Shown here piece by piece: positions 31,722-49,836 of a stretch of 64,000 nucleotides of DNA. Within the stretch, counting starts at the first letter, position 1. Each line of letters opens with the position of its first letter. The stretch comes from Halarcobacter sp. (GTDB taxonomy: Bacteria > Campylobacterota > Campylobacteria > Campylobacterales > Arcobacteraceae). A model generated the notes under the pieces. That model did no database searches. It had not been told where the DNA came from and worked only from the letters and a program-made list of their open reading frames with translations. A program made the position numbers and the translations under genes. The stretch covers positions 1,860,001 through 1,924,000 of the forward strand of contig NZ_OY780939.1 in NCBI RefSeq assembly GCF_963675975.1, read 5' to 3'.

Positions 31722-31749
31722 CAAAGAGGTTAATTCCTCTTTGCTTTTT
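31722..31749. terminator. Terminator of acnB and of the ugp-type operon
   Basis: CAAAGAGG (31722-31729), loop TTAATT, CCTCTTTG (31736-31743), then CTTTTT on the plus strand and T-rich sequence on the minus strand. It overlaps the end of the leftward HAD gene. Confidence 0.7.
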
Positions 31750-32515
31750 CTAACTTTTCTTTTAAATCTATTAACGAATCAAAAATCATAAAATCTTTTT
31801 TTACAACATATTTTGGTAAATCATTACCTGTTTTTATCCAAGCAGGATTTATTTTAGAATTTTTTGCTCCTAAAATATCTGTATCATAAGTATCACCAAT
31901 CATCATAGTTTTTTCTTTCTTTTTATTAAACTTATTTAAAATAGTTTCATACCCATAAGAGTTTGGTTTTCCTATAATTTTTATCTCTTTGTTTGTAAAT
32001 TCAGAAATAATACTATTTATAACCCCACATTCTAATTCAAATCTATCTTTTAGTGGTATCAACTTATCTGGATTTGCAGCAATTATTTGTGTATTTTCTC
32101 CTATTAGATTTATTGTATTTGATATAGCTTTTAATGTAATATTATTATCCATACCAATTATAATAAATTCTGGTGAAGTTGTGTTTTTTTGATATTTAGT
32201 ATATAAACTCTCTTGAAGTTGAGTACTACCTAATACATATATATCATTTGCACAATTTTCAAATAGATAATGCTCAATTAGTTTTGTTGTAGTATAGATT
32301 TTATTTTCATTAACATCTACAGCACCTTTTAAAAGTTTCTCTTTGTATCTTTTTGTTTTATAGTTTGAATTATTTGTAAAAAAGCAGTATTCAATACCAT
32401 TTGAATTTAGATAATCTATAATCTCTTTTGTACCTAATATATTTTCATCTTCCCTATAAAATACCCCATCTAAATCAAAAATTATAAAATCAATATCTTT
32501 AAGTATTTTATACAT
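31730..32515 (-). CDS. HAD-IIA phosphatase (NagD/phosphoglycolate type)
   Basis: 261 aa with FDLDGVFYRED (motif I), FFTNNSN (motif II), IGKPNSYGYE (motif III) and MIGDTYDTDILGAKNS (motif IV), and a C2-type cap between motifs II and III. HAD-IIA enzymes dephosphorylate small metabolites, including glycerol 3-phosphate and phosphoglycolate in some members. Its ATG overlaps the last base of the transporter operon, so it probably processes the imported compound or a product of it. Confidence 0.85.
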   Translation of the reverse strand: MYKILKDIDFIIFDLDGVFYREDENILGTKEIIDYLNSNGIEYCFFTNNSNYKTKRYKEKLLKGAVDVNENKIYTTTKLIEHYLFENCANDIYVLGSTQLQESLYTKYQKNTTSPEFIIIGMDNNITLKAISNTINLIGENTQIIAANPDKLIPLKDRFELECGVINSIISEFTNKEIKIIGKPNSYGYETILNKFNKKKEKTMMIGDTYDTDILGAKNSKINPAWIKTGNDLPKYVVKKDFMIFDSLIDLKEKLEKAKRN

Positions 32516-33312
32516 TATTTAATCCCTGTATGCATAAATGAGTTAACAAACTCTTTTTGAAAAATTAAAAATGCCAATAATAAAGGTGCAACAGAGATTA
32601 ACGTAGCAGCAGAGATAGTGGACCATTGCACTCCTGATTCAGGAGCTGCAAAGATTGCAAGTCCAACTGTTAGTGGTTTAACCTCATTTGAATTAGCAAT
32701 AACCAAAGGCCATAAAAAATTATTCCAGTGATATGAAACAGAAACTAAAGCATAGGCTAAATATGTTGGTTTTGCCAAAGGAATATAAACCTTAAATAAA
32801 ACACCAAGGGGTGAACACCCTTCAACTTTAGCTGCTTCATCTAGTTCGTTTGGGATTGTTTTAAATGTTTGTCTTAATAAAAATATACCAAAGGCTGAAG
32901 CAATATAAGGTATTGCCATACCCCATGTTGTATCAACTAAATTAAAGTCTGCAACTGTTTTATAGTTTTCTATGATTAAGTTTTCAGGCATTATCATTAA
33001 TTGCATTAATACTAAAAAAAAGGCAATATTTTTACCATAAAAATCAAACTTAGCAAAAGCATAAGCTGCAAGTGTACAAAGTATCATCTGACCTATTAAT
33101 ATTACTGTAACCAATAAAAAAGTATTTGTAAGATATTGTAAAAATGGAGCTTGAATCCATGCATCAAAAAATGCCTGTGTACTTAAAGGTGCAAGAAGTG
33201 TAAAATTTGATGAGTATTTCTCTTCATGAAACGCAGCCCAAAAAGTATATATTAAAGGCAATATCCAAATTATTGCAAGGGTATAGGTTGCTATTTTTTG
33301 TAAAAGCTTCAT
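32515..33312 (-). CDS. ugpE: Carbohydrate/G3P ABC transporter permease, UgpE-like
   Basis: 265 aa from the ATG at 33312 (AGGAATATT upstream); an in-frame ATG 11 codons earlier lies inside the preceding gene and lacks a ribosome site. Six membrane segments with the EAA signature ELDEAAKVEGCSPLGVLFKVYIPLAKP that contacts the ATPase. It belongs to the CUT1-type second permease family (MalG/UgpE). It follows the UgpA-like gene by 7 bases. Substrate inferred from context as sn-glycerol 3-phosphate or a related sugar phosphate. Confidence 0.85.
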   Translation of the reverse strand: MKLLQKIATYTLAIIWILPLIYTFWAAFHEEKYSSNFTLLAPLSTQAFFDAWIQAPFLQYLTNTFLLVTVILIGQMILCTLAAYAFAKFDFYGKNIAFFLVLMQLMIMPENLIIENYKTVADFNLVDTTWGMAIPYIASAFGIFLLRQTFKTIPNELDEAAKVEGCSPLGVLFKVYIPLAKPTYLAYALVSVSYHWNNFLWPLVIANSNEVKPLTVGLAIFAAPESGVQWSTISAATLISVAPLLLAFLIFQKEFVNSFMHTGIK

Positions 33313-33319
33313 AATATTC

Positions 33320-34183
33320 CTATTTATAGTGTATTTTTCTTTCAACTAAGCCAAATTGAATTAGTGAAACAATAATTAAAAGTGATAATAATACAATCGT
33401 TAATGTTGCAGCATAAGCATAATCAAAAAATGAAAATGCAACATCATAAATATAATATAATAAAAGGTTTGATGCATTATCAGGTCCACCTTTTGTAAGT
33501 ATAAAAAGATGGTCAACCATTTTAAATGAATTTATAAGTGCATTTATCATCACAAAAAAAGTTGTTGGCATCAGTAAAGGAAAAGTGATTTTCCAGAATG
33601 CAGTCCATGAAGTTGCTCCTTCAATTTTAGCTGCTTCAAGTAACTCTTTTGGAATTGATTGAAGAGCTGCAAGGTAAAAAATCATAAAGAATCCTGCTTC
33701 TTTCCATACAGTCATAACTATAGTTGCTCCTAATACTAAATCAGTATCTCCAAGAAAGTTTTGCTGCTCAATATCAAAGTATTGAAATATCTGATTTATT
33801 AATCCAATCTCAGGTGCATAAAAAAATAGCCAAATATTAGCAACGGCAACCATAGGTAAAATTGTTGGTGTAAAATATGCTAATCTAACAATTGAGCGTC
33901 CTCTTATTTTATTTTGTACAAAAACAGCCATAGATAGTGATATAGCAATTGATAAAGGAACAGTTGTAAGGGCAAAAATCAAAGTATTTTTAAATGTTTG
34001 TAAAAATACTGGATCGTTTAACATATATTCATAATTATCAAGCCCGATAAATTTTTTGGGCTTGATAACAGTTTGATTAGAAAAAAATGAGTTAATAAAA
34101 GTAGTTACAGTTGGATAATGTGTAAACGCAACTATAAGTATAAATCCAGGAAGTAACAATAACCAACCGTAAACATGTCTCAT
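33320..34183 (-). CDS. ugpA: Carbohydrate/G3P ABC transporter permease, UgpA-like
   Basis: 287 aa, six membrane segments, N-terminus starting WLLLLPGFILIVAF as in MalF/UgpA-type permeases, FTPTILPMVAVANIW in the core and the EAA loop ELLEAAKIEGATSWTAFWKITFPLL. It forms the membrane channel with the UgpE-like subunit. It lies 9 bases after the binding-protein gene. Confidence 0.87.
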   Translation of the reverse strand: MRHVYGWLLLLPGFILIVAFTHYPTVTTFINSFFSNQTVIKPKKFIGLDNYEYMLNDPVFLQTFKNTLIFALTTVPLSIAISLSMAVFVQNKIRGRSIVRLAYFTPTILPMVAVANIWLFFYAPEIGLINQIFQYFDIEQQNFLGDTDLVLGATIVMTVWKEAGFFMIFYLAALQSIPKELLEAAKIEGATSWTAFWKITFPLLMPTTFFVMINALINSFKMVDHLFILTKGGPDNASNLLLYYIYDVAFSFFDYAYAATLTIVLLSLLIIVSLIQFGLVERKIHYK

Positions 34184-34192
34184 ATAAACCCT

Positions 34193-35461
34193 TTATTGGT
34201 AATTTCTTAATAATCTAGTTGCTTGATTTTGAGCTTCATTTAAAGCTTCTTTCGCATCTTTTTTATCTGTTAATACTGCTTGAATTGTATCATCAAGAAT
34301 TTTTCTAATTCTTCCTGTTTGATAAGTTGATAATTCAGCTGTTGCATATTTTAACTGATCCCTTGCAACTTTTGCTGGTGGGAACTCTTCAACATATTTT
34401 TTAAGTGTAGGTGTATCGTATGAAGCTTGTGAAATACCAATATATCCTGTACCTTTTGACCATTTTGCTGAGTTTTCAGGGCTTGTCATAAATTTAATTA
34501 ATTTTATTGAAGCAGCTCTTTGCTCAGGAGTTGTTTTTTTGAAGATATAAAAGTTTCCTCCACCTGTTGGTGTTCCTCTCATCTCATTAGCTGGAAGCAT
34601 AGCTACACCAAAATCAAAAGTAGCATTCTTTTTAACAGCAGTTAAGTTTCCTGTTGAGTGCCACATCATAGCAGTTTTCCCACTTAAGAAATTTTTTCTA
34701 AGTGTTCCCCACTCAATTGTTCCTTGAGGCATTACATTATATTTATGTGATAAATCTTTCCAGTATTGTAAAGCATCTACAACTTTTGGATTGTCAAAAT
34801 ATGTTTTTGTACCATCTCCATTCATAAGAACTTCACCATTTTGTTTTGCTAGTGCACCAAACATCCAGTAAGGATAACCAGTTGATGGAATCATAACTCC
34901 CCATTGATCATCATTTGTAAGTTTTTTACCCATAGATGCTAATTCATCCCAATTTTTTGGTGGTTGTTCTGGATCAAGACCAGCTTTTTTGAAAGCATCT
35001 TTATTATAATACATCACAATAGTTGATCTTTGAAATGGTACAGCCCAAACCTTACCTAATGTTGTTCCATTTTCCATTAATGCTGGATAAAAAGAGTTTA
35101 ACCATTTTTTATCTTCTTCAGATTTTAAAATATCAGAAAAAGGCACTATTGCATTTTGTTCTATTAAATCATAAGTATCAATTGAAAACATTACAGCTAA
35201 TTGTGCAGGTTTTCCAGCTTTTAAAGCTGCAAGTGATTTAATTCTAGCATCATTATAATTACCTGCATAGATTGCATTTACATCAATATCTGGATTTTTT
35301 TTCTCAAACTCTTCAACCATTGAATCTACTATTTTTGTAAGTGGACCACCAACTGAAACTGGATAATACATTGTAAGTTCAGTTTTTTGTGCATTTGCAC
35401 TTGATAAAAAACTCGCAGCTAAAACACTTACTAATGCTGCTTTTTTAACAAAATTTAACAT
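34193..35461 (-). CDS. ugpB: Periplasmic solute-binding protein, UgpB-like
   Basis: 422 aa with a Sec signal peptide (AALVSVLAASFLSSANA). It is a family 1 extracellular binding protein: TELTMYYPVSVGGPLTKIVD at the mature start, ARIKSLAALKAGKPAQLAV, VMYYNKDAFKKAGLDPEQPP, MMWHSTGNL and a helical C-terminus. It captures the substrate and delivers it to the UgpAE-like permease. G3P is the best guess because of the GlpR-like regulator and the HAD phosphatase, but sugars or polyols are possible. Confidence 0.82.
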   Translation of the reverse strand: MLNFVKKAALVSVLAASFLSSANAQKTELTMYYPVSVGGPLTKIVDSMVEEFEKKNPDIDVNAIYAGNYNDARIKSLAALKAGKPAQLAVMFSIDTYDLIEQNAIVPFSDILKSEEDKKWLNSFYPALMENGTTLGKVWAVPFQRSTIVMYYNKDAFKKAGLDPEQPPKNWDELASMGKKLTNDDQWGVMIPSTGYPYWMFGALAKQNGEVLMNGDGTKTYFDNPKVVDALQYWKDLSHKYNVMPQGTIEWGTLRKNFLSGKTAMMWHSTGNLTAVKKNATFDFGVAMLPANEMRGTPTGGGNFYIFKKTTPEQRAASIKLIKFMTSPENSAKWSKGTGYIGISQASYDTPTLKKYVEEFPPAKVARDQLKYATAELSTYQTGRIRKILDDTIQAVLTDKKDAKEALNEAQNQATRLLRNYQ

Positions 35462-35488
35462 ACTTATTTACTCCTACTAATATGTAAT

Positions 35489-36562
35489 TTAAGATAAGAT
35501 ATCTCTTCTCTCACCATGTGAATTAAAGAAATTAACTTTAGCTTCACTCCAATTTATCCAAACCCTATCACCATTTTTATAGTTATCAGCTTTTTGTATT
35601 CTCATTAATATTGGATTTGTTAAGTTGTCATTTAAAGTTTGAATACCTAAAATAGTATCTGAACCATGATAGTCTTTATAAACTATCTGACCACAAAAAC
35701 CAATATTATTTTCTTCAAAATATATATCTTCAGGACGAACTCCAAGAAAATCTATATCTTCAGTAATACGGCTTGAATAAGTTGATTTTAACTCTTGATT
35801 CTCTATTAATACTTTTTCTTTTTCCTTTTTTATATTTATTATGTTCATTGGAGGTGTTCCAATAAATCTACCTACAAAAGTACTAGCGACATTTTCATAT
35901 AACTCTTCTGGTTTTCCCTCTTGTTCAATCTCTCCTTTATTTAATAATATAATATGGTCAGCCATACTCATAGCTTCAGTTTGGTCATGGGTTACATATA
36001 AAACTGTCATTTCCAATTGTTGTTGTAGTTTTTTTATCTCAATTCTCATCTCATGTCTAAGTTTCGCATCAAGATTTGATAAGGGTTCATCCATAAGGCA
36101 GATTTTGTTTTTGGCCACAAAAGCCCTTGCTAAAGCAACCCTTTGTTTTTGACCACCAGAGAGTTGTGAGGGTTTATTTTCAAGTAAGCCTTCAAGTCCT
36201 ACAAGTTTTACAACTTTTTTAAGTCTTTTTTCCCTTTCTTTTTTTTCAACTTTTCTCACCTTTAGTCCAAATAATATATTCTCCTCAACACTTAAATGGG
36301 GAAATAGGGCATAAGATTGAAACACCATTGATATTCCTCTTTTTGAAGGATTTAACTTTGATACATCTTTTTTATTTATTAAAATTTGACCAGAGCTTAT
36401 CTTTTCTAATCCAGCAATCATTCTTAAAGTTGTTGATTTACCACAACCAGAAGGTCCTAATAAAACAGTAAAACTTCCTTTTTTTATTTTAAAATTTAGA
36501 TTTTCAATTACAGTTTTATTGCCGTATCTCTTACATATATTTTTTAGTTCTATATATGGCAT
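35489..36562 (-). CDS. ugpC: ABC transporter ATPase, UgpC/MalK type
   Basis: 357 aa. Walker A GPSGCGKST, Q-loop VFQSYALF, signature LSGGQKQR, Walker B ICLMDEP, D-loop NLDAKLR and H-loop YVTHDQTEAM are all intact. Residues about 240-357 form the TOBE/regulatory domain (IDFLGVRPEDI). It powers the importer. Its ATG overlaps the stop of the DeoR gene by one base. Confidence 0.93.
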   Translation of the reverse strand: MPYIELKNICKRYGNKTVIENLNFKIKKGSFTVLLGPSGCGKSTTLRMIAGLEKISSGQILINKKDVSKLNPSKRGISMVFQSYALFPHLSVEENILFGLKVRKVEKKEREKRLKKVVKLVGLEGLLENKPSQLSGGQKQRVALARAFVAKNKICLMDEPLSNLDAKLRHEMRIEIKKLQQQLEMTVLYVTHDQTEAMSMADHIILLNKGEIEQEGKPEELYENVASTFVGRFIGTPPMNIINIKKEKEKVLIENQELKSTYSSRITEDIDFLGVRPEDIYFEENNIGFCGQIVYKDYHGSDTILGIQTLNDNLTNPILMRIQKADNYKNGDRVWINWSEAKVNFFNSHGERRDILS

Positions 36563-37338
36563 TATCTAACTCCTTTTGTGTCTGGATAAGTTAGTTTGAC
36601 TCCATTACTTTCAAGTATTTTGCAAATATTTTCTGAAGGCTTTTTATCACAAAAGAAGTTATCTACCATAGATATATTTCCACCTCTTATATATGCTTTT
36701 CTTTCAAATTTTGAAGAATCAGCTGCTAAAAATACTTTCTTACTAAACTTATATATTGTTTCTCTAGCTTTTATCTCTTCATGGGTAAAATCAAGTAAAG
36801 AACCATCATCTTCTATAGCTCCAACTCCAAATATTCCAAAATCAACACTATATGAACTAAAAAAATTCTCTACATCATTTCCAACAATATCTCTATGTTT
36901 ATTTCTAATCAAACCACCATGCAATACTATTTCGAAACTTGGATTTTCACAACATACAAGAGCAACATTTATATTATTTGTAAATATTTTTAGATTTTTA
37001 TGATTTATTAACTCTTTTGCAATTATTTCTGGCGTTGTACCTATAGAGAAAAAAAGTGAACTATTATTAGGTATTTGTTTTGCAATCATGTTTGCAATTA
37101 TTCTTTTTTCATCATAGTGGATTATTTTTCTGCTTGTATATGAGATATTATCAGTTTTTGCAGGTATCTCAACCCCACCATAGATTCTTCTAAGTAAACC
37201 TTTTTTACATAAATCATTAATATCTTTTCTTATTGATTGAACTGTTACTTCAAAAATATTACTTAAGTCTTCAACTGATGCAAATTTTTCTTGTCTAACT
37301 TTTTCTAAGATATATGCTTGTCTCTCTTTTGGTTTCAT
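36562..37338 (-). CDS. DeoR/GlpR-family transcriptional repressor
   Basis: 258 aa. DeoR-type winged helix at the N-terminus (ERQAYILEKVRQEKF, VEDLSNIFEVTVQSIRKDI, RRIYGGVE) and a sugar-phosphate-binding sensor domain with SIGTTPEIIA and FGIFGVGAIEDDGSL. GlpR relatives release DNA on binding a phosphorylated ligand. It heads the transporter operon, and TTTCG repeats in the upstream region (37346-37381) are a plausible autoregulatory operator. Confidence 0.9.
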   Translation of the reverse strand: MKPKERQAYILEKVRQEKFASVEDLSNIFEVTVQSIRKDINDLCKKGLLRRIYGGVEIPAKTDNISYTSRKIIHYDEKRIIANMIAKQIPNNSSLFFSIGTTPEIIAKELINHKNLKIFTNNINVALVCCENPSFEIVLHGGLIRNKHRDIVGNDVENFFSSYSVDFGIFGVGAIEDDGSLLDFTHEEIKARETIYKFSKKVFLAADSSKFERKAYIRGGNISMVDNFFCDKKPSENICKILESNGVKLTYPDTKGVR

Positions 37339-37457: not shown

Positions 37458-37471
37458 TATGAATTTTCATT
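37458..37471. promoter_or_regulatory. Candidate TetR operator upstream of its own gene
   Basis: TATGAA-TT-TTCATT differs by one base from the AATGAA-NN-TTCATT palindrome found before both hydrogenase operons. It lies about 25 bases upstream of the TATAAT at 37493-37498, i.e. over the -35 region of the tetR promoter. Confidence 0.5.
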
Positions 37472-37492
37472 CACAATTAATTATTTTAATAT

Positions 37493-37498
37493 TATAAT
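37493..37498 (+). promoter_or_regulatory. -10 element of the tetR-H2 sensor operon
   Basis: A perfect TATAAT 30 bases before the TTG start of tetR, with AAGGA in between. Confidence 0.5.
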
Positions 37499-37527
37499 TA
37501 AAAATAAAATCAAGATAAGGATAGATT

Positions 37528-38118
37528 TTGCCATCTAAAGAAGAGAAAAAGAATACTATTATTGAAAACTCTTTGAAACTATTTTCTAAAAATGGTTTTT
37601 ATAATACAACAATCCCTGATATTGCTAAGTCAATGAAGATGAGTGTTGGTAATATGTACAACTACTTCAAATCTAAAGAGGAGTTGGCAAAATATGCTAT
37701 AAAATACTCTACAAATGTATTGGCTAAAGAACTAAAAGCAATTAACCAAATGGATATAACTTCAAAAGAGAAGATATTTATTTTTACTAAAAAATATTTA
37801 CAAAGTGTAAAAAAGTCACCTGAAGTGATAGAATATTTTTTAAGGGTATACCTTTCAAACAGAGAAGTATTTGCTGAAGGTTGTGAAGGGTTTTTATGCG
37901 TAAGTGAATTTGTAACTGAAGTTATGATATTACTAGATGAAGGTGCAGCCAAAAAAGAGTTTAGACAACAAGAATTTTTTCCAGCTTTTGCCATGATTAT
38001 GGGAGCTTTAGGAGGATTTGCATTTCTTTCAGGAGAAAAAGTTTTAGACAAGGATATTTTAACGTACTCTGATGAGGTAGCAGAAAACATCTACAGAGCA
38101 CTTAAATATGAAGACTAA
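37528..38118 (+). CDS. TetR-family regulator of the hydrogenase island
   Basis: 196 aa, TTG start with AAGGA six bases upstream. TetR helix-turn-helix at about 8-55: KNTIIENSLKLFSKNGF, IPDIAKSMKMSVGNMYNYFKSKEEL. The rest is the helical ligand/dimer domain, unlike any sub-family I can name. Its stop overlaps the start of the H2-sensor-like small subunit by 11 bases, and the same palindrome stands before its own promoter and both hyd operons. I infer control of hydrogenase expression; the ligand is unknown. Confidence 0.88.
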   Translation: MPSKEEKKNTIIENSLKLFSKNGFYNTTIPDIAKSMKMSVGNMYNYFKSKEELAKYAIKYSTNVLAKELKAINQMDITSKEKIFIFTKKYLQSVKKSPEVIEYFLRVYLSNREVFAEGCEGFLCVSEFVTEVMILLDEGAAKKEFRQQEFFPAFAMIMGALGGFAFLSGEKVLDKDILTYSDEVAENIYRALKYED

Positions 38119-38995
38119 AAAGCCAAAAGTTTTATGGCTTCAAGCCATAACTTGTAATGGTAATACTCACTCTTTTTTGAGTGCCAATGATAATAGAATG
38201 AAACTATTTTTAGATAGTTTTGATTTGATTTATCATCCTTCATTAACTACAGATTTAACAATTACTGATATTGTAAAAAAAAGTATTGAGATAGATTTTT
38301 TATTAGTTGAAGGAGCTATCACATCTGATACACACTTTTTTTCAACATCTGGATTCTCATCACACGATTTATTTAACAAGTTAGTAAAACAAACAAAATA
38401 TTTAGTTGCAGTTGGTTCTTGTGCTTCATATGGTGGAATACATGCTAAGTTTGAACAAAATAGTGATATTAGAGGGATTAAAGATTCTTTAGATTCTGAA
38501 AATATGTATATATTAAATCATCCAATTGTAAATTTAACAGGTTGTCCTGTAAATCCAGAATGGATTTTCCAAACTCTTTTTTCACTAAAAGATTTTGGAA
38601 AAATCATGCTTGATGATGAGGGTCGTCCAAAAGAGTTATATTATAGCTTAGCCCACCATGGATGTACTAGAAATGAATATTTTGAATGGAAAATAGAGGG
38701 ACATTTTGGTCAAAAAGAGGGTTGTCTTTTTTATGACCAAGGCTGCCGTGGTCCTATGACTCATTCAAACTGTAATAAAATATTATGGAATGATGTGAAC
38801 AGTAAAACTAGGGCTGGTATGCCATGTATTGGATGTACAGAATTTGATTTTCCAAGAGAAAATATGCTTGAAACTAAAAAGAACATAGGTATTCCAGATG
38901 AAGTGCCTTTAGGTGTTACTAAAAGAGCATATCTTTCAGCAGCTGGTGTTGCTAAAACATTTAAAATAGATAGACTTCACAAAAAACTTATATAG
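38108..38995 (+). CDS. Cytosolic group 2-type [NiFe]-hydrogenase small subunit (HupU/HoxB-like)
   Basis: 295 aa without a Tat signal or C-terminal anchor, so cytoplasmic. Iron-sulfur ligands: proximal C16, C105 and C146, but the fourth position is N19 (motif TCNGNTHS instead of CxGC); distal H183/C186/C206/C213 (HHGC, EGCLF, QGCRG); medial C222, C240, C243 (PCIGC). It pairs with the large subunit 18 bases downstream. The lack of a signal peptide and the company of a regulator suggest an H2 sensor; a cytosolic uptake enzyme is the alternative. Confidence 0.85.
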   Translation: MKTKKPKVLWLQAITCNGNTHSFLSANDNRMKLFLDSFDLIYHPSLTTDLTITDIVKKSIEIDFLLVEGAITSDTHFFSTSGFSSHDLFNKLVKQTKYLVAVGSCASYGGIHAKFEQNSDIRGIKDSLDSENMYILNHPIVNLTGCPVNPEWIFQTLFSLKDFGKIMLDDEGRPKELYYSLAHHGCTRNEYFEWKIEGHFGQKEGCLFYDQGCRGPMTHSNCNKILWNDVNSKTRAGMPCIGCTEFDFPRENMLETKKNIGIPDEVPLGVTKRAYLSAAGVAKTFKIDRLHKKLI

Positions 38996-39013
38996 ATTAT
39001 TCAAGAGGCATAT

Positions 39014-40369
39014 ATGAAAACAGTTGATATTATTGAAAGAATTGAAGGTGAAGCAAAGTTAGTTTGCTCTTGGAAAGATAATCTAATAGAAGATGCAAGA
39101 ATTGAGTTTTTAAACTTTAGAGGATTTGAATATATACTTGAAAACAAAGCTCCACTTGATGCTTTAGTTTATACCCCAAGAATCTGTGGAATTTGTGGAC
39201 AAGCTCATCTTAAAGCCACTGTTGAAGCCTTAGAATCTATTTACGAGGCAGTTGATTATAAAGTGGAACTTACAAAAAAAGCAGAAATTCTAAGAGAGAT
39301 TGGTTTAAATATAGAAATAATAGATTCACATATAAAATGGTTTTATATGTTCATTATGCCTGATATGATTAAACTATCAAATAAAGATTTTTCTTCATAT
39401 GAACCTTTAAAAGGTGAAAAATGGTTAAAGGCTTCATCTATTGCTAGTGAAACAATAAAGGCTTTAGCTATTATAGGAGGTCAATGGCCCCACACTTCAT
39501 ATATGATTCCAGGTGGAGTTGTAAGTGACCCCACACTTTTAGATTTATCAACAATGGGTAATTATTTAGATAATGCAATTAGATTTTTTGAAAAAGATTT
39601 TGCAGGTGTAGATTTAGAAAACTATTTAAGTTTTTCAAAAGTAACAGATTTAGACAAAATTACTTGTGATTTAAAAGATTTTATCACTTTATGCTTTGAA
39701 AACAATCTAGAAAATGAAGGGAAAAGCCATAATAGACATATTGTTTTAACAAATAGTCAATTGTTTAAAGCTGGAAAAAGTAATAAACGTTTAATAAATA
39801 AAATAGATTTTGAAAGAATTAAAGAGAATAACGATTACACATTTAATCTGGATAAAACAAAGCAATCTTCTCAAGCTTATGGATGGTCAAAAAGTGTTAA
39901 ATATGGTGAGAACTATTATGAAACAGGACCTTTATCAAGAGCAATAATCTCAAAAAGAAAATTTATCTCAAAAGTTCATGAAAAATATGCTGATTCTGTT
40001 TTAACAAGAGTATTAGGAAGAATGGATGAATTAGCTTATTTGCTTTATGAAACTAGAATGATGATAAAAAAAATTGATGTTAATGAAAACTCATTTATAA
40101 AACCAAATCTATCTTTAAATGATATAGCCCAAGGGAAAGGTATCGCAACTGTTGAGGCAAGTAGAGGTTCACTCTTACATGAAATAGATATAAAAGATGG
40201 AAAAATCAATAAATATAACGTAATTACCCCAACTGTTTGGAACTTAGGACCTGGGAGTTTAACTGAACCTTCTATAGCTCAAAAGGCAATGATTGGAAAT
40301 AATTCTATAAAAAAAGCTCAAATTATTTTAAGAAGTTTTGATGTTTGTTCTGTTTGTACTACTCATTAA
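39014..40369 (+). CDS. Cytosolic group 2-type [NiFe]-hydrogenase large subunit (HupV/HoxC-like)
   Basis: 451 aa. The L1 motif RICGICGQAH and the L2 motif DVCSVCTTH carry the four Cys that hold the NiFe site; L2 has DVC where DPC is usual. The protein stops directly after the L2 His, so there is no C-terminal peptide for a maturation protease to remove. That is the known state of regulatory (H2-sensing) hydrogenases such as HoxC/HupV. It is shorter than the HydB subunits (576-578 aa). No HoxJ-type kinase is encoded here. Confidence 0.88.
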   Translation: MKTVDIIERIEGEAKLVCSWKDNLIEDARIEFLNFRGFEYILENKAPLDALVYTPRICGICGQAHLKATVEALESIYEAVDYKVELTKKAEILREIGLNIEIIDSHIKWFYMFIMPDMIKLSNKDFSSYEPLKGEKWLKASSIASETIKALAIIGGQWPHTSYMIPGGVVSDPTLLDLSTMGNYLDNAIRFFEKDFAGVDLENYLSFSKVTDLDKITCDLKDFITLCFENNLENEGKSHNRHIVLTNSQLFKAGKSNKRLINKIDFERIKENNDYTFNLDKTKQSSQAYGWSKSVKYGENYYETGPLSRAIISKRKFISKVHEKYADSVLTRVLGRMDELAYLLYETRMMIKKIDVNENSFIKPNLSLNDIAQGKGIATVEASRGSLLHEIDIKDGKINKYNVITPTVWNLGPGSLTEPSIAQKAMIGNNSIKKAQIILRSFDVCSVCTTH

Positions 40370-40598
40370 CTGTATCTTTTAGTAACAATAGAAAAATAAA
40401 TTTAAGCTTAAAAAATAATATTTAAAAATTATATTTATACAAGATAAAAACACTCATATTTAAATAATCAACGAAAACATAGTATTTAGTTATATTTTTA
40501 TAAAAATAAAAAATATTTTTTTATTTTTTATGCAAAATATTAGTTAAAAATAATAAGTTTAGCTTAAGTATCTAAAGGATAATTTTACAATGATGCTA

Positions 40599-40612
40599 AA
40601 TGAACATTCATT
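40599..40612. promoter_or_regulatory. Palindromic operator before hydrogenase operon 1
   Basis: AATGAA-CA-TTCATT, perfect 6-base arms. A possible -10 GATAAT (40578-40583) lies just upstream, so the site falls near +9 to +22, a repressor-type position. The 266-base spacer 40370-40635 holds nothing else I can support apart from a TTTAAGCTTAAA palindrome at 40401-40412. Confidence 0.55.
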
Positions 40613-40635: not shown

Positions 40636-41877
40636 ATGGTTGATTCTCATGACATGGTAAAAAAAGTTTTTACCCAGAATTCTGCTAGAGTCGATACAAA
40701 TAAAGGTGATGCATATTATAGTAAGCTTTTTGAAAAAGCAAAAACTAGATTAGAGGCATTAAAAAAGCAACCAGCACTTAAAGATATAGATATGATGGAT
40801 ATCGTTGAGAGTGAAGGTGTAAATAGAAGAGATTTCATGAAGTGGGCAAGTGCAACAACTGCAACTTTAATGTTACCTCCTATGTTTACACCATTAGTTG
40901 CTGAGGCTACTGAACTTATGAATAGAGTTCCAGTAATTTGGATTGAGTTACAAGATTGTGCAGGTAACTCAGAAGCTTTATTAAGATCTTCTGCTCCAAC
41001 AGTAGATGATTTATTATTTGATGTTTTAAGTTTAGAGTTCCATGAAACAATTATGGCTGCTTCTGGTCATCAAGCTGATGCTCAATTAGAGGATGCTATT
41101 CACCATTTCAAAGGTAAATATTTATTATTTGTAGAAGGAGCAATTCCTACAGCTATGAATGGTCAATATGGGACAATTGGTGCAAGTGGTGAAACTTTCC
41201 AAGAACACTTAGAAAGATTATCTAAAGATGCTGCTGCTGTTGTAGCTGTTGGTACATGTGCTACATTTGGTGGTATCCCTGCTGCTGCTCCAAATCCAAC
41301 TGGTGCTGTTGGTGTAATGGATTTAGTTAAAGGTAAGCCAGTTATTAATATTCCTGCCTGTCCTGCGAATCCTGCAAATATGGTTGGTGTTGTTTTACAT
41401 TATGTATTAACTGGACAAGTTCCTGAATTAGATTCTTTATTAAGACCTAAGTTTGCATTTGGTTATAGAATTCACGACAACTGTGAGAGAAGAGCTCACT
41501 TTGATGCTGGTGAATTTGTTGAAGAATGGGGAGATGAAGGTGCTAAAAACAATTTCTGTTTATATAAAGTTGGATGTAAAGGTCCAATGACATTTAATAA
41601 CTGTTCAATTATTAGATATAACGAGGGTGCAAACTGGCCTGTTGGTGTTGGTCGTGGATGTATTGGTTGTTCTGAGCCTGATTTCTGGGATAAATATGCT
41701 TATGAAAGACCAATGGCAGATGCAAATATCAAAGCACCAACTGGTGGGGTTGAAAAAACAGTTGATGAGTTTGGTCTTGGATTATTAACAGCAACAACAA
41801 TTGGTATAGGTGTACATGCAGTAGCAAGTGCTGCTATTGGAAAAAGAACAGTTCATAGTGAAGATGGAGAAGAGTAA
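40636..41877 (+). CDS. hydA: [NiFe]-hydrogenase 1 small subunit, periplasmic
   Basis: 413 aa from the ATG at 40636 (AAAGGAGAGG upstream); the ATG at 40600 lies in the operator and has no ribosome site. A Tat motif NRRDFMKW (R64-R65) precedes the export signal, and a C-terminal hydrophobic helix (LLTATTIGIGVHAVASAA) anchors it. The proximal motif is DCAGNSE: C108 is present but N111 replaces the second Cys. The other Fe-S motifs (TCATFGG, PACPANP, HDNCERR, VGCKGP, NNC, GCIGCSEPDF) are intact. It carries electrons from the NiFe site to HydC. Confidence 0.93.
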   Translation: MVDSHDMVKKVFTQNSARVDTNKGDAYYSKLFEKAKTRLEALKKQPALKDIDMMDIVESEGVNRRDFMKWASATTATLMLPPMFTPLVAEATELMNRVPVIWIELQDCAGNSEALLRSSAPTVDDLLFDVLSLEFHETIMAASGHQADAQLEDAIHHFKGKYLLFVEGAIPTAMNGQYGTIGASGETFQEHLERLSKDAAAVVAVGTCATFGGIPAAAPNPTGAVGVMDLVKGKPVINIPACPANPANMVGVVLHYVLTGQVPELDSLLRPKFAFGYRIHDNCERRAHFDAGEFVEEWGDEGAKNNFCLYKVGCKGPMTFNNCSIIRYNEGANWPVGVGRGCIGCSEPDFWDKYAYERPMADANIKAPTGGVEKTVDEFGLGLLTATTIGIGVHAVASAAIGKRTVHSEDGEE

Positions 41878-43613
41878 TGGGTAAACACGTAGTAATAGAT
41901 CCAATAACAAGGATTGAAGGACACTTAAGAATAGAAGCAGTAATTGATGATAATAATGTGATTACTGATGCGTTCAGTTCATCTACAATGTTTAGAGGAA
42001 TTGAAGAGATTTTAAAAGGTAGAGATCCAAGAGACTGTGGTCTTTTAGCTATGAGAATCTGTGGAGTTTGTACAGGTACTCATTATCAAAGATCAATTGA
42101 AGCAGTTGAGCATGCATTTGGTGTAACAATTCCAAAAAATGCAAGACTTGTTAGAAATTTAATGCAAGGTGCATTATATCTACATGACCATATTGTACAC
42201 TTCTATCATCTACACGCTTTAGACTGGGTAGATATTACTGAAGCTTTAAAAGCAGATCCAAAAGCAGCTGTAGCAGAAGCTCAAAAGTGGGCAAAAGTTG
42301 CTGGAACTAGACCATGGAATGCAAGTGAAGATGTATTTGCTGAAGTTCAAGAAAGAGTTACTAAATATGTAAAACAAGGAAGACTTGGAGTATTTGGAAA
42401 CGCTTACTGGGGAAGTAAAGCATATAAATTAACTCCTGAGCAAAACCTTATTGGTCTTTCTCACTATTTAGATGCATTGGAATTACAAAGAAAAATTGCA
42501 AAAGCACAAGCTATATTTGGTGGTAAAAACCCACATCCACAATCAATTGTTGTTGGTGGGGTAACTTGTGTTCAAGATATTAAAAATCCTGCAAGAATTG
42601 CTGAGTTTAAAGATATTATCCAATTAGCTCAAAAATTTACTAAACAAGCATATCTTCCAGATGTTTATATGGCTGGTACTATGTATGCTGATGAAGCACT
42701 AGCTGGTGTTGGTGGTGGTTTAGGTAACTTTATGTCTTATGGAGATTTTAATCTTGATGATACTCCATTTTATGAAGCTAAAAAACTATTCCCAAGTGGT
42801 GTTGTTTTAAATAAAGATTTATCAAAAGTATTTGAGTTAGACCAATCTAAAATTACAGAAGATGTAACTCACTCATGGTATGAAGGTAATGATAATCTTC
42901 ACCCATTTAGTGGTAAAACAAATCCTAACTATACTGGATTTAAAGAGAAAAAAGATGGTATTGCTTATTTAGATACTGATAACAAATATTCTTGGATTAA
43001 ATCACCATTATATGATGATCAAAGAATGGAAGTGGGTCCATTAGCAAGGATGATTATTGGAGTTGCAAGTGGTGATGAAAGAATTACTAAATATGTAACT
43101 ACATTCTTAAAAAATGGAAACTTACCAACAAAAGTATTATTCTCAACTGTAGGAAGAACAGCTGGTCGTGCTATTGAAACTGAATTAATGGCTGATGTTA
43201 TTATTGAATGGTGTGATGAATTAGCTGCAAATGCTGCATCAGGTGATTTATCAACTTGGACTGAATTTGATTTTGATAAAGTTTCAAAAGATGCACAAGG
43301 TTATGGTATGGCAGAAGCTCCAAGAGGTGGTTTAGGTCACTGGGTTAAAATCAAAGATGGAAAAGTTGCAAACTATCAAGCAGTTGTTCCTTCAACTTGG
43401 AATGCAGCACCAAAAGATTATAAAGGTAGAATGGGAGCTTATGAAGCTTCTTTAGTTGGTACAAAAGTTGTAGACCCTGATCAACCACTAGAGATTATTA
43501 GAACAGTGCACAGTTTTGACCCTTGTATCGCTTGTGCAGTTCACATTGTAGATACAAAAGGTAAAGAATTGGCAGTATACAAAGTAGATCCAGTAGGAGG
43601 ATGCCGTGCCTAA
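41877..43613 (+). CDS. hydB: [NiFe]-hydrogenase 1 large subunit
   Basis: 578 aa. L1 motif RICGVCTGTH and L2 motif DPCIACAVH hold the NiFe(CN)2CO centre. A 22-residue tail after the L2 His must be removed by the HydD protease before it joins HydA and is exported with it. The ATG overlaps the hydA stop by one base. It oxidises H2 in the periplasm. It clearly resembles HydB2 at 48097, including IDPITRIEGHLRIE at the start. Confidence 0.96.
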   Translation: MGKHVVIDPITRIEGHLRIEAVIDDNNVITDAFSSSTMFRGIEEILKGRDPRDCGLLAMRICGVCTGTHYQRSIEAVEHAFGVTIPKNARLVRNLMQGALYLHDHIVHFYHLHALDWVDITEALKADPKAAVAEAQKWAKVAGTRPWNASEDVFAEVQERVTKYVKQGRLGVFGNAYWGSKAYKLTPEQNLIGLSHYLDALELQRKIAKAQAIFGGKNPHPQSIVVGGVTCVQDIKNPARIAEFKDIIQLAQKFTKQAYLPDVYMAGTMYADEALAGVGGGLGNFMSYGDFNLDDTPFYEAKKLFPSGVVLNKDLSKVFELDQSKITEDVTHSWYEGNDNLHPFSGKTNPNYTGFKEKKDGIAYLDTDNKYSWIKSPLYDDQRMEVGPLARMIIGVASGDERITKYVTTFLKNGNLPTKVLFSTVGRTAGRAIETELMADVIIEWCDELAANAASGDLSTWTEFDFDKVSKDAQGYGMAEAPRGGLGHWVKIKDGKVANYQAVVPSTWNAAPKDYKGRMGAYEASLVGTKVVDPDQPLEIIRTVHSFDPCIACAVHIVDTKGKELAVYKVDPVGGCRA

Positions 43614-44340
43614 AATGAAGCGGGTTGAGAGAATGACTCCAATCATGCGAACCATTCACTGGATGAATGCAATTTGTATGGTTGTTGCAGTCATAACCGG
43701 GCTATATATAGGTCATCCATATTATCAATCTTTTATTGCAGATCCTGCAGTTGATAAATATGTGATGGCATGGAATAGATGGGGACATTTTATTGTTGCC
43801 ATTATATTTGATGTAACAGCAATTTTAATTGGTTACTTATATCTTTTTTCAAGATTTGAAAAACCTTATAAGAAGATATTACCAACTAAAAAGAATTTTA
43901 TTGAGTTTTGTGAAGTATTTTTTAACTTAATTACTTTTAATAGAAGAAAGAAATTTGATTCAGAACATAGTGATAGTTATAATATTATGTTCTTTACACT
44001 ATTTCATATTTTATTAGTATTTATGTTATTAACAGGTCTTCAAATGTATGTTCATGGTTTAGCATCTGGAACTAGTTCTATTGGAGCATGGTGGCCTTGG
44101 ATTTTACATTTATCAACAGATTGGACACTTTGGGTATTTGGTGGAAATATGGGAGTTAGAATTGCTCATCATACTGCTATGTATATTTTAATTATGTGGG
44201 TTATGTCACATATTTATTATCAAATCTGGAGAACTGTTTTCTGGAGAGAAGGGGACATTAATATTGTATTTGGTGGAACTAAATTTGTTAACAAAAATAT
44301 TGTTAACTCAAAAGGGGAAGTAGAATCACAAGGAAAATAG
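43606..44340 (+). CDS. hydC: Hydrogenase 1 cytochrome b subunit
   Basis: 244 aa, GTG start five bases after AGGAGG, overlapping hydB by 8 bases. Four membrane segments; candidate haem His residues in RTIHWMNAI, VHG, RIAHHTAMY and SHIYYQIW fit the Ni/Fe-hydrogenase b-type cytochrome family with two haems. It passes electrons from HydA to the menaquinone pool. It is about 20 residues longer than HydC2, mainly in a basic cytoplasmic loop. A strong terminator follows directly. Confidence 0.92.
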   Translation: MPKMKRVERMTPIMRTIHWMNAICMVVAVITGLYIGHPYYQSFIADPAVDKYVMAWNRWGHFIVAIIFDVTAILIGYLYLFSRFEKPYKKILPTKKNFIEFCEVFFNLITFNRRKKFDSEHSDSYNIMFFTLFHILLVFMLLTGLQMYVHGLASGTSSIGAWWPWILHLSTDWTLWVFGGNMGVRIAHHTAMYILIMWVMSHIYYQIWRTVFWREGDINIVFGGTKFVNKNIVNSKGEVESQGK

Positions 44341-44468: not shown

Positions 44469-45044
44469 ATGAAAAATATTGTTATTGGTGTAGGTAATGT
44501 ACTATTTAAAGATGAGGGTGTAGGTATTTATGCCTCAAAATATTTAGAAGAGAATTTTGAATTTGATGATAGTTTAGAGATTATTGAGGGTGGTACATTA
44601 GGGTTTAAATTAATGACATTTTTTCAAGAGTATGATAATGTAATTATTTTAGATACTGTTTCAATTGAAGATAAAGCAGGGGAGATTTTTAGATTGCCTT
44701 CTGATGTATTATTAGGACTTGGACAATATAGAAAAACTGCCCATGAAGTTGAAATAGTAGAGATGCTAGAGATTTGCTCAGTTTTAGATAAACATGCAGA
44801 AGTAACTATTTTAGGAATAATACCAGAAGATATCGAAAGTGTTGATATTGGACTTACTAAAACAATTGAAGATAGATTTGATGAGTATATTGCACAAGCA
44901 TTAAAAGAGTTAGAATCAGTTGGTATTAAGATGAAAAGAAAAGATAACAAATCAATCAAGCAAATTGCACAAGAGTTAATCGGAAGCTATAATGGTGAAC
45001 ACCTAAATAGAATTCCAAATGAGGAAGACACCACATGGAATTAA
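44469..45044 (+). CDS. hydD: Hydrogenase 1 maturation endopeptidase
   Basis: 191 aa, HycI/HyaD-type protease fold: GVGNVLFKDEGVG at the start (Glu that binds Ni), VIILDTVSIED (Asp) and AHEVEIVEML (His). It checks Ni insertion and removes the C-terminal peptide of HydB. A GGGATTT site precedes the ATG. It lies beyond the terminator that ends hydABC1, so a promoter in the 70 AT-rich bases upstream is likely (TTATAC at about 44450). Confidence 0.9.
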   Translation: MKNIVIGVGNVLFKDEGVGIYASKYLEENFEFDDSLEIIEGGTLGFKLMTFFQEYDNVIILDTVSIEDKAGEIFRLPSDVLLGLGQYRKTAHEVEIVEMLEICSVLDKHAEVTILGIIPEDIESVDIGLTKTIEDRFDEYIAQALKELESVGIKMKRKDNKSIKQIAQELIGSYNGEHLNRIPNEEDTTWN

Positions 45045-46570
45045 TATATAAAATCAATTTTTCAAGTACAAATTTTTATTTTAAAAATATTATAGATGAT
45101 ATTGCTAAACAATCTGATGTTAATGTTACTACAAAGATGTATAAAGGGTTTATTCTATTAATTTGTGATGATACACAAGAAAAAATAGAGAATTTTTTTA
45201 AAAATCTAGAGCAACAATTACCTTTATCTATATATTTATCAAGTGCAGAAGTTTTAGAAAGTTTTGATTTTGATAAATATGAAGAATTAGAAGATAAGGG
45301 AATAAAGCTAAATATTTCGTTACTTACAAATAATCAAATCAAAAAAATATTAGATGAAAATCATATTGATTTTTCAAATGATGTAAATAAAATAAAAGAT
45401 GGTGGTGTATCTAGATATGAAACACATAATGGGTTAAAAGATCTATTTTTACCTTCATATGAATTAAGAGAAGATTTTGAAGCAAAAGGTTATGAGGTTA
45501 AACTTTTGATTACTAATATCAATGCAATATCAAATCTATTAGAAGTGTCACAAAAAGATTTACAACTATTATGTTCAATAGAAAGACCTTTAGTTAAACT
45601 TAGATTTAAACTTTTACAAAACTCAAAAAAAGAGTATTCAAATACTAGATTTATTTATGCAAAAATTCCTGATGATAGAGAGACTGTATTATTTGCAAAT
45701 GCTTTAAAAGAAGAGGGGATTGATTATCTATTATATGTAAATGATGAGATTTATCAAGATGGTTTAAAAGTTACATATAATGACAAACAAAATATTGTAA
45801 TCCATGGAGAGAAAACACTTTTCCCTAAATATGATTACAATCTAAATAGACAAGTTAACTCTTGTAAAGATTATTTTGATGAATATGGTTCAGTGTTTAA
45901 AGCAAAAATAGATCAGTTTAATCTAAAAGATGTTCCCTCTGTAGGAGTTTATTTTTCATATGATAGTGATGAGTCTGCAATAAAAATAAATCTTCCTGAA
46001 GTTGGAACAAAAGATGTGATTTATGTTCCAAATGTATTAAATAGTGTAGATAATTGTCTAGAAGATATAAAATCAATTGATGAAAACTGTGAAAGATTAG
46101 TTGAAAACTATAGAAATAAATATTCAAAATATTTTGAAAAAGAGTTTATAGATAAAGATAGTGATAGTTTTGCCTCAATTATGAATATTCTTGCTTATGT
46201 TTTAGGTATGAGGGATTATAAAGAGTTTGAGGATTGTGCCTTATTATACAATGCAAAAAGTGGAATTCAAATAGATATGAATGTAATCAAAATAGATGGC
46301 AAAAATTATTTAGATTATAGAAGAATAATTCAAAGTTCAATGAGTTATAAAATGGCAGGTGTTGAAGATACTATGATTGCATACTCTTTCTTTGAAAGTT
46401 TATCTGATTTTATTACAGATAATGTAAACACAATTAACAAAGAGATAAAAGCAAATGACTTAATTATTTGTGGTAATGTTTTTGCGAACTCTATACTACT
46501 TTCTAAAATAAGTAAAAATCTTAAAAATATTAATATTCATGTACCAAAAGAGTACCCTTTGGATTTTTAG
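45035..46570 (+). CDS. hydE: Hydrogenase 1 accessory protein HydE, HypF-related
   Basis: 511 aa, starting inside the hydD1 stop region (10-base overlap). The C-terminal third resembles the Kae1/HypF carbamoyltransferase end: AYSFFESLSDFI, LIICGNVFANSILLSKI and PKEYPLDF parallel HypF GGVFQNKTLLEAV and IPLNDGG. The N-terminal part looks like a small alpha/beta domain. Unlike the paralogue at 51052 it has no Cys4 zinc motif. HydE homologues (H. pylori HP0635) are needed for hydrogenase activity but their function is unknown. Confidence 0.8.
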   Translation: MELIYKINFSSTNFYFKNIIDDIAKQSDVNVTTKMYKGFILLICDDTQEKIENFFKNLEQQLPLSIYLSSAEVLESFDFDKYEELEDKGIKLNISLLTNNQIKKILDENHIDFSNDVNKIKDGGVSRYETHNGLKDLFLPSYELREDFEAKGYEVKLLITNINAISNLLEVSQKDLQLLCSIERPLVKLRFKLLQNSKKEYSNTRFIYAKIPDDRETVLFANALKEEGIDYLLYVNDEIYQDGLKVTYNDKQNIVIHGEKTLFPKYDYNLNRQVNSCKDYFDEYGSVFKAKIDQFNLKDVPSVGVYFSYDSDESAIKINLPEVGTKDVIYVPNVLNSVDNCLEDIKSIDENCERLVENYRNKYSKYFEKEFIDKDSDSFASIMNILAYVLGMRDYKEFEDCALLYNAKSGIQIDMNVIKIDGKNYLDYRRIIQSSMSYKMAGVEDTMIAYSFFESLSDFITDNVNTINKEIKANDLIICGNVFANSILLSKISKNLKNINIHVPKEYPLDF

Positions 46571-46833: not shown

Positions 46834-46847
46834 AATGAATATTCATT
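46834..46847. promoter_or_regulatory. Perfect 14-base operator palindrome before hydrogenase operon 2
   Basis: AATGAATATTCATT is fully self-complementary and fits AATGAA-NN-TTCATT. It lies about 43-56 bases upstream of the TATAAT at 46890. Confidence 0.6.
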
Positions 46848-46889
46848 CAAATATTGATTTAAGTCAAATTAATTTGCCTTGTGTTTTTT

Positions 46890-46895: not shown

Positions 46896-46935
46896 GTCAA
46901 TATGAATGAATAATTGTTCAATAAAAGGAAAAATT

Positions 46936-48093
46936 GTGAAAGAGAATAGTTTATTTAACAGACTTTCTAAAAGGTTAGAGACTCTTGAAAAACTTCCAAA
47001 ATTAGATGAAAAAAAATCTATTCCACAAGTTTTAGAAGAGAAAGGTATCTCAAGAAGAGACTTTATGAAATGGGCTACAGCAGTTACAGCAATGTTAGCA
47101 TTACCAGCTAATTTTACTCCATTAGTTGCAAAAGCTGCTGAAATAAGTGATAGACTGCCAATTATTTGGCTTCATATGGCAGAGTGTACAGGATGTTCTG
47201 AATCTTTATTAAGAACTGATGCACCTACTATTGATTCATTGATTTTTGACTATATCTCTTTAGAATATCATGAAACATTAATGGCAAGTGCAGGTTGGCA
47301 AGCGGAACATAATCTAGAACATGCAATAGAGAAACATAAAGGAAACTATATCCTTATGGTTGAAGGTGGTATTCCAAGTGGTGATACAAACTTTTATTTA
47401 ACTATTGGTGGTCATGGAAATACTGGGGAACACAGTGCAAAAGTTGCATGTGAAAGCGCAAAAGCAATTTTTGCTATTGGTACATGTTCATCATTTGGTG
47501 GGGTTCAAGCTGCAATTCCTAATCCAACTGGCGCAGTTGCTTTAAGTAAAATCACGAATAAACCAGTTATTAATGTTCCAGGATGTCCTCCAAGTGAGAA
47601 AAATATTGTTGGAACTTTATTACACTTTATTTTATATGGTACATTACCAGCACTTGATGCCTATAATAGACCAAAATGGGCTTATGGACAAAGAATTCAC
47701 GATTTATGTGAAAGAAGAGGTCACTTTGATGCTGGTGAGTTTGTTGAAGAGTTTGGTGATGAGGGTGCAAAAAAAGGTTATTGTTTATATAAAGTTGGTT
47801 GTAAAGGTCCTTATACCTTTAATAACTGTTCTAAAAATAAATTTAACCAACATACATCTTGGCCAATTCAAGCAGGTCATGGTTGTATAGGTTGTTCAGA
47901 ACCAGATTTCTGGGATACTATGGGACCATTTGAAGAGCCTGTTGCAGATAGACTATATGATACTGTATTTGGTGGCTTAGGTGCAGATGCAACAGCAGAT
48001 AAAATTGGTGTTGGATTATTAGCAGTTACAGGTATTGGTATAGCTGCACACGCTGCAATTTCAAAATTTAAAAACCCAAAAGATGAGGAGTAG
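46936..48093 (+). CDS. hydA: [NiFe]-hydrogenase 2 small subunit, periplasmic
   Basis: 385 aa from the GTG at 46936, six bases after AAAGGA; an ATG at 46906 has no ribosome site. Tat motif SRRDFMKW (R40-R41), a C-terminal hydrophobic anchor (GVGLLAVTGIGIAAHAAI). It has the normal proximal motif ECTGCSES (C84, C87), unlike HydA1, and the complete later Fe-S motifs (VPGCPP, HDLCERR, VGCKGP, GCIGCSEPDF). Close to the group 1b HydA of Campylobacter and Helicobacter. First gene of a six-gene operon. Confidence 0.95.
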   Translation: MKENSLFNRLSKRLETLEKLPKLDEKKSIPQVLEEKGISRRDFMKWATAVTAMLALPANFTPLVAKAAEISDRLPIIWLHMAECTGCSESLLRTDAPTIDSLIFDYISLEYHETLMASAGWQAEHNLEHAIEKHKGNYILMVEGGIPSGDTNFYLTIGGHGNTGEHSAKVACESAKAIFAIGTCSSFGGVQAAIPNPTGAVALSKITNKPVINVPGCPPSEKNIVGTLLHFILYGTLPALDAYNRPKWAYGQRIHDLCERRGHFDAGEFVEEFGDEGAKKGYCLYKVGCKGPYTFNNCSKNKFNQHTSWPIQAGHGCIGCSEPDFWDTMGPFEEPVADRLYDTVFGGLGADATADKIGVGLLAVTGIGIAAHAAISKFKNPKDEE

Positions 48094-48096
48094 AAA

Positions 48097-49827: not shown

Positions 49828-49836
49828 GAGCAAATT

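Follow-up and report, generated by a model that had tools for sequence, protein, structure and literature searches.

The 64,000-nucleotide stretch of the Halarcobacter sp. genome analysed here (contig NZ_OY780939.1, positions 1,860,001 to 1,924,000; called the window below) carries a gene for a TetR/FadR-like protein, tetR, followed on the same strand by the genes for the small and large subunits of a cytosolic [NiFe]-hydrogenase. Two group 1 uptake-hydrogenase operons lie 3' of this pair (structural genes at 40636-44340 and 46906-50505, plus maturation genes), and the features of the locus are listed in Table 1. As the initial annotation had described, tetR and the small-subunit gene overlap by 11 bases (38108-38118 in the open reading frame (ORF) list of the window), and the large subunit terminates in ...SFDVCSVCTTH-stop, i.e. 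with the L2 His as its last residue and no C-terminal extension. Pfam matches were TetR_N in TetR (E 1.8e-13), Oxidored_q6 and NiFe_hyd_SSU_C in the small subunit and NiFeSe_Hases in the large subunit. The start of hydA1 is most likely ATG 40636, which stands behind AAGGAG, rather than position 40600, where the longest ORF begins. The genome is one 3.27-Mb contig of Arcobacteraceae type.

Table 1. Genes and putative regulatory sites of the hydrogenase locus (positions in the window).
Feature	Position	Strand	Basis
putative TetR operator 5' of tetR, TATGAATTTTCATTCA, 1 mismatch to AATGAATNNTCATTCA	37458-37473	no strand	palindrome scan
tetR, TetR/FadR-like probable repressor, 196 amino acids, TTG start	37528-38118	+	ORF call, Pfam, fold
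C119 and C124 codons of tetR (C-x4-C)	37882-37884 and 37897-37899 (37882..37899)	+	conserved in 103/103
group 2d small subunit (HuaS-type), cytosolic [NiFe]-hydrogenase, 295 amino acids, ATG start	38108-38995	+	ORF, Pfam, tree
group 2d large subunit (HuaL-type), cytosolic [NiFe]-hydrogenase, 451 amino acids	39014-40369	+	ORF, Pfam, tree
putative operator of uptake operon 1, TAAATGAACATTCATT	40597-40612	no strand	site found likewise at hydA1 promoters in Arcobacteraceae
hydA1, group 1b uptake hydrogenase small subunit	40636-41877	+	ORF, sequence
hydB1, uptake hydrogenase large subunit	41877-43613	+	ORF, family match
hydC1, cytochrome b subunit	43606-44340	+	ORF; named from operon position and sequence
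hydD1, hydrogenase maturation protease (HycI family)	44469-45044	+	Pfam
putative operator of uptake operon 2, AATGAATATTCATTCA, perfect match	46834-46849	no strand	palindrome scan
hydA2, small subunit of second uptake hydrogenase	46906-48093	+	ORF
hydB2, large subunit of second uptake hydrogenase	48097-49827	+	ORF, sequence match

The survey of TetR and hydrogenase co-occurrence that the initial annotation had suggested was run over 397 Campylobacterota genomes, and small-subunit homologues were found in 130 of them at E 1e-30 (matches with E below about 1e-55 were of group 2d type, weaker ones mostly resembled group 1). Among the loci that were read (103 rows, corresponding to 102 distinct loci because one plasmid was counted twice), an orthologous tetR was located directly 5' of the small-subunit gene on the same strand, with the large-subunit gene 3', in 103/103 rows, a repetition that places the order TetR-small-large far beyond chance. 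The junction between tetR and the small-subunit gene was commonly -11 or -4 nt, i.e. an overlap, or a gap of 8 nt or less, and TetR was the best conserved of the three proteins (mean pairwise identity 62%, versus 51% and 44%). A TetR profile search gave matches in 115 genomes, with a truncated TetR in G204 and contig breaks in G300 and G295. Outside the phylum, 17 Aquificota loci contained a TetR with CxxxxC directly 5' of the pair at 8 loci and a TetR truncated at a contig end at 2. A Runella plasmid (L309:1093-2777) has two TetR genes 5' of its group 2a hydrogenase pair; this association of TetR with hydrogenase may have arisen independently.

Judged by its sequence, the TetR-linked pair is a group 2d [NiFe]-hydrogenase. 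When 42 large subunits were placed in a maximum-likelihood tree, the window protein grouped with Campylobacterota and Aquificota relatives (support 100/100), while group 2a and HoxC/HupV branched elsewhere; the closest solved structures to both subunits were those of M. smegmatis Huc (Hydrogenase-2). The proximal-cluster motif of the small subunit is CxGN, with three Cys as in Huc, whereas HoxB/HupU have CGGC; moreover, the alignment showed that the C-terminal extension of HoxB/HupU, which continue past the end of the Campylobacterota small subunits, is absent from the latter. This extension is the part of HoxB/HupU that contacts the kinase. Membership in HupUV (group 2b) was ruled out on these three grounds, so that the family name 'HupUV-like' in the initial annotation had to be given up in favour of group 2d. 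The resemblance behind that name is nevertheless real, since HoxBC/HupUV are likewise cytosolic heterodimers whose large subunit ends at the L2 His, with an uptake operon adjoining and a signalling gene directly 5' of the small subunit (ATP-binding and kinase-like in L312 and L313, TetR here); however, identity is only 32% to HoxB for the small and 25% to HoxC for the large subunit, and the ending at L2 is not diagnostic because groups 2b and 2d share it. No twin-arginine translocation (Tat) motif was present at the N-terminus of the group 2d small subunit, in contrast to HydA1 with RRDFMKWA. The active-site ligands of the large subunit are intact: C58, C61, C445 and C448 (NiFe ligands of L1 and L2), as well as E11, R384 and D443, were invariant in 103/103 rows. 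In about 30% of the Campylobacterota group 2d large subunits, Gln or Lys replaces the His with which L2 normally ends, which is odd for a catalytic [NiFe] enzyme.

The palindrome TGAATTTTCATTCA 5' of tetR reappears as TGAATATTCATTCA 5' of hydA2, and the full site reads AATGAATNNTCATTCA (complement TGAATGANNATTCATT). Sites of the form TGAAT-N4-ATTCA are rare in this genome, only about 8 per 3.27 Mb, of which 3 are inside the hyd cluster; the remaining ones, near metQ-like, porin-like and other genes, have no hydrogen link and are probably there by chance. All three cluster sites lie close to promoter-like elements: 5' of tetR the site overlaps the probable -35 region with TATAAT directly downstream, 5' of hydA1 the order is TACAAT, site, AAGGAG and ATG 40636, and 5' of hydA2 TATAAAT precedes the site. 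In an unbiased count of all palindromes with 5-base arms, TGAAT-N4-ATTCA came out on top, being present in 73/111 hydA upstream regions (the overlapping register AATGA-N4-TCATT in 75/111), whereas in random regions from the same loci it occurred at most 2 times and no palindrome exceeded 7 occurrences. Allowing 2 mismatches, 92/94 loci that have a linked hydA carried the full site, compared with a null mean of 3.5/110 random regions, and the Aliarcobacter-type loci that were read also carry it at hydA. Where a TATAAT-like box was recognisable, the site mostly began 8-16 bases past the box start, a spacing that fits a repressor site near +1.

Presence of the site followed presence of the module. 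The hydA loci of 30 module-less Campylobacterota (11 of them Arcobacteraceae) gave 0/30 exact sites and also 0/30 when 2 mismatches to the full site were allowed, with only 1/30 carrying a short form at one mismatch; Fisher's test on exact sites with versus without the module gave p about 1e-14, a value that overstates the strength of the association because the genomes share descent. The site at hydA cannot be put down to proximity alone, since it is kept at distant hydA genes: G343 has, 750 kb away from the module, a hydA with a perfect site at -20, and in G131 and G329 hydA is on a different contig from the module with the site still present. Unlinked hydA genes lacking the site were found in G125 (contigs 14 and 18), G004 and G356. 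The 13 genomes in which hydA was not seen beside the module, or had no clear site, do all encode hydA (13/13). In genome-wide scans, G319 (2.4 Mb) had one site only, at hydA, and both sites of G310 and both of G074 fell within the hyd cluster, while module-less G008 and G030 had none and G034 had two one-mismatch sites elsewhere. In Aquificota, the palindrome was seen at the hydA start in L216, L220, L223, L225 and L231. Autoregulation of tetR as a general rule was ruled out, because a site within 2 mismatches was present 5' of tetR in 13/102 loci only.

The AlphaFold model of TetR (mean predicted local distance difference test score, pLDDT, 88.6) has the TetR fold with the TetR_N helix-turn-helix. 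B. subtilis FadR was the closest solved fold (template modelling (TM) score about 0.8, including the stearoyl-CoA complex) at about 20% identity, and FadR was also the top NCBIfam match, with a score far below the cut-off. The FadR operator is likewise a palindrome with a TGAATGA-like half-site; in contrast to FadR, the window TetR is linked to hydrogenase rather than fatty-acid genes. Two cysteines, C119 and C124, were invariant in 103/103 Campylobacterota rows and in 8/8 Aquificota TetRs long enough to include them. They are located in a low-pLDDT loop between helices 6 and 7 (residues 111-125) that is otherwise variable; to our knowledge, such an invariant C-x4-C loop is not part of FadR. 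The Campylobacterota alignment contained no invariant His in TetR. Nickel binding of the classical kind is therefore less likely, and the candidates would be a disulfide, a metal held by Cys alone or a cluster. From their conservation, the cysteines make a redox link to the hydrogenase plausible.

Paralogous TetRs with a shifted C-x4-C (REIFCENDRC-like) were found at L296:7541-8122 (G225), L295:6146-6724 (G105) and L297:6696-7349 (G061). The first adjoins the NRDD anaerobic ribonucleotide reductase and the two others probable molybdate/tungstate uptake genes, neighbours that point to a redox or metal theme; in all three, a TGAAT-N4-ATTCA palindrome lies close to the paralogous tetR. This sister group may represent a broader family of anaerobic repressors acting through thiols.

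Upstream linkage, the distribution of the operator and the invariant cysteines together make TetR a very probable repressor of the uptake hyd operons. The claim of the initial annotation that TetR regulates the two neighbouring operons is thereby strengthened, given the rare palindrome that tetR, hydA1 and hydA2 share and its occurrence at hydA across the phylum only where TetR is present. We propose that TetR as repressor and the group 2d hydrogenase as its input constitute a one-component H2 switch, a reading to which we assign a probability of about 0.55. TetR bound to AATGAATNNTCATTCA sites at the transcription starts would keep the uptake-hydrogenase operons repressed, and the group 2d hydrogenase, whose genes would be transcribed together with tetR, would serve as its sensor; that this enzyme is indeed the H2 input we regard as slightly better than an even bet. 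When H2 is present, it would be split at the NiFe site and its electrons would pass along the iron-sulfur (FeS) relay of the small subunit, reaching TetR either directly, within a complex of the two, or by way of the local redox state. The C119/C124 pair would then be switched, either between thiol and disulfide or through a bound metal or FeS cluster, whereupon TetR would leave the operator and the hyd operon would be transcribed. Passage of the signal through C119/C124 is suggested tentatively, with odds somewhat under even. A direct wiring of TetR to the hydrogenase, with electrons entering via C-x4-C, as an H2 switch across Campylobacterota and part of Aquificota, is likewise possible but not the outcome we would bet on.

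Published data were compared with this proposal. Roles offered for the cytosolic group 2d enzyme include H2 sensor, electron supplier for the reductive tricarboxylic acid (rTCA) cycle and ferredoxin re-oxidiser (review PMC4584964); Sievert 2008 and Brugna-Guiral 2003, as cited in PMC4584964 and PMC5401914, proposed a role in the rTCA cycle through ferredoxin reduction. Strain hDNRA1 of A. butzleri showed a 2.3-6.2-fold rise of both hynAB sets with H2 and a fall of huaSL (PMC12286921); in S. denitrificans the cytosolic hydrogenase gene was transcribed without soluble H2-uptake activity (PMC4149538); and in A. aeolicus extracts the group 2d enzyme was hardly detectable, its function being termed unresolved and possibly regulatory in 2023 (PMC10052474). 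A low-abundance sensor fits these data. Our literature search, which left subscription journals mostly outside, returned no paper tying TetR to hyd operons or describing the operator or the cysteines.

Several observations weigh against the proposed switch. The strongest are two genomes, G143 and G348 (L290, L291), that retain TetR and, 5' of hydA, its operator, with the group 2d pair absent, so that TetR may function without the pair, and the constitutive expression of hydB in S. multivorans, in which hupL is barely transcribed (PMC5357620). G143 and G348 are natural knock-outs of the pair. In addition, the H2 comparison in A. butzleri also switches the electron donor, and in Sulfurospirillum hDNRA2 hynAB were equal on H2 and formate, a confounded comparison as formate also yields H2 (both PMC12286921). 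Finally, the linkage that is strict in the Campylobacterota loci read is loose in Aquificota, since L237 has the pair and no TetR, and since the large subunit stands by itself in L218, L220, L224 and L264, with neither an adjoining small subunit nor TetR.

In the main rival explanation, TetR would be a self-contained redox or oxygen sensor that uses C119/C124 to permit the hyd operons when conditions are reducing, with the group 2d hydrogenase as a metabolic rTCA enzyme that merely shares the operon. Retention of TetR without the pair, the pair without TetR in some Aquificota and the rTCA role as relayed above agree with it, and the paralogs beside NRDD or molybdate/tungstate uptake genes, with the palindrome nearby, suggest an H2-independent redox theme. 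We nevertheless consider this explanation unlikely, though worth serious weight, in view of the strict TetR linkage in each Campylobacterota locus read that holds the hydrogenase, hynAB following H2 in A. butzleri (PMC12286921), the lack of soluble H2 uptake (PMC4149538) and the scarcity of enzyme and transcript (PMC10052474, PMC5357620). Binding of a small ligand such as acyl-CoA, with structural cysteines, is recommended by FadR, both as nearest solved fold, stearoyl-CoA complex included, and as top though sub-threshold NCBIfam match; it appears improbable given that the linked genes encode hydrogenase, that no fatty-acid genes were recognised in the locus and that the two invariant cysteines are embedded in a variable loop.

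TetR family proteins often regulate their own operon, and tetR adjoins the pair with a palindrome 5' of tetR in the window; repression of the own hydrogenase pair only, as Kruse et al. 2017 considered for S. multivorans, is nonetheless very improbable against the palindrome counts of 92/94 5' of hydA and 13/102 5' of tetR. A classical circuit, in which a HoxJ/HupT-like kinase encoded elsewhere in the genome would be the partner, we find barely credible: the genome does contain about 70 histidine-kinase-like matches, but the best cover the kinase core only, the longest is 22% identical, none is in the hyd cluster and the small subunit lacks the HoxB extension. A HoxJ ortholog elsewhere in the genome was thus rejected, and none over the full length was found in 20 genomes. 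Among the ORFs around the module, none was recognised as encoding a kinase or an NtrC-type regulator (the latter looked for in the hyd cluster only). The description of the module as kinase-less in the initial annotation is supported, and a one-component TetR would stand where HoxBC/HupUV have the HoxJ/HupT kinase and the NtrC-type HoxA/HupR.

Other genes around the module were noted as well. A sugar ATP-binding cassette (ABC) transporter operon with a DeoR-type regulator (31730-37338) is divergent from tetR. Related-looking proteins are encoded behind each uptake operon (45035-46570 and 51052-52677), the first with a HypF_C_2 (Kae1-like) remnant. A second cytosolic [NiFe]-hydrogenase in the genome belongs to a HoxEFUYH-like NAD-reducing cluster with its own protease (L007:1553-6799, at 346.5-351.8 kb); such an enzyme is likewise known from Arcobacter (Halarcobacter) anaerophilus (PMC4584990).

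Among known systems, the closest are the group 2d enzymes, represented by hydrogenase III of Aquifex aeolicus and by HuaSL (also 'HupSL') of Campylobacterota; the window pair shares with them the clade that includes the Aquificota enzymes (100/100), the cytosolic location, a large subunit without extension and CxGN. Accounts of group 2d see in it a source of electrons for CO2 fixation or leave its role unresolved, and the TetR-hyd link, the operator and the thiol pair are absent from the papers found. The nearest precedent is the TetR-like gene upstream of hupSL in S. multivorans, the same combination of regulator and gene pair, which was mentioned once, as a possible repressor of hupSL only, with no operator, hyd regulon, cysteines or sensing role (Kruse et al. 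2017; PMC5357620). TetR adjacency is therefore what was known before; the Campylobacterota-wide linkage of TetR, the operator at hydA and the invariant C119/C124 are new here.

The function of group 2d hydrogenases has been disputed for almost twenty years, and a defined regulator, an operator and two cysteines make the question directly testable. If the proposal is true, the kinase-free H2 switch would provide a compact component for gene circuits that respond to H2. Control of H2 use in free-living Campylobacterota, which occur in large numbers at vents and redoxclines rich in H2 and sulfide, is poorly understood (PMC6682613); if true, the proposal would mean that many hydrogen-using bacteria of the ocean and its vents probably sense H2 by a one-step switch in place of the textbook kinase relay.

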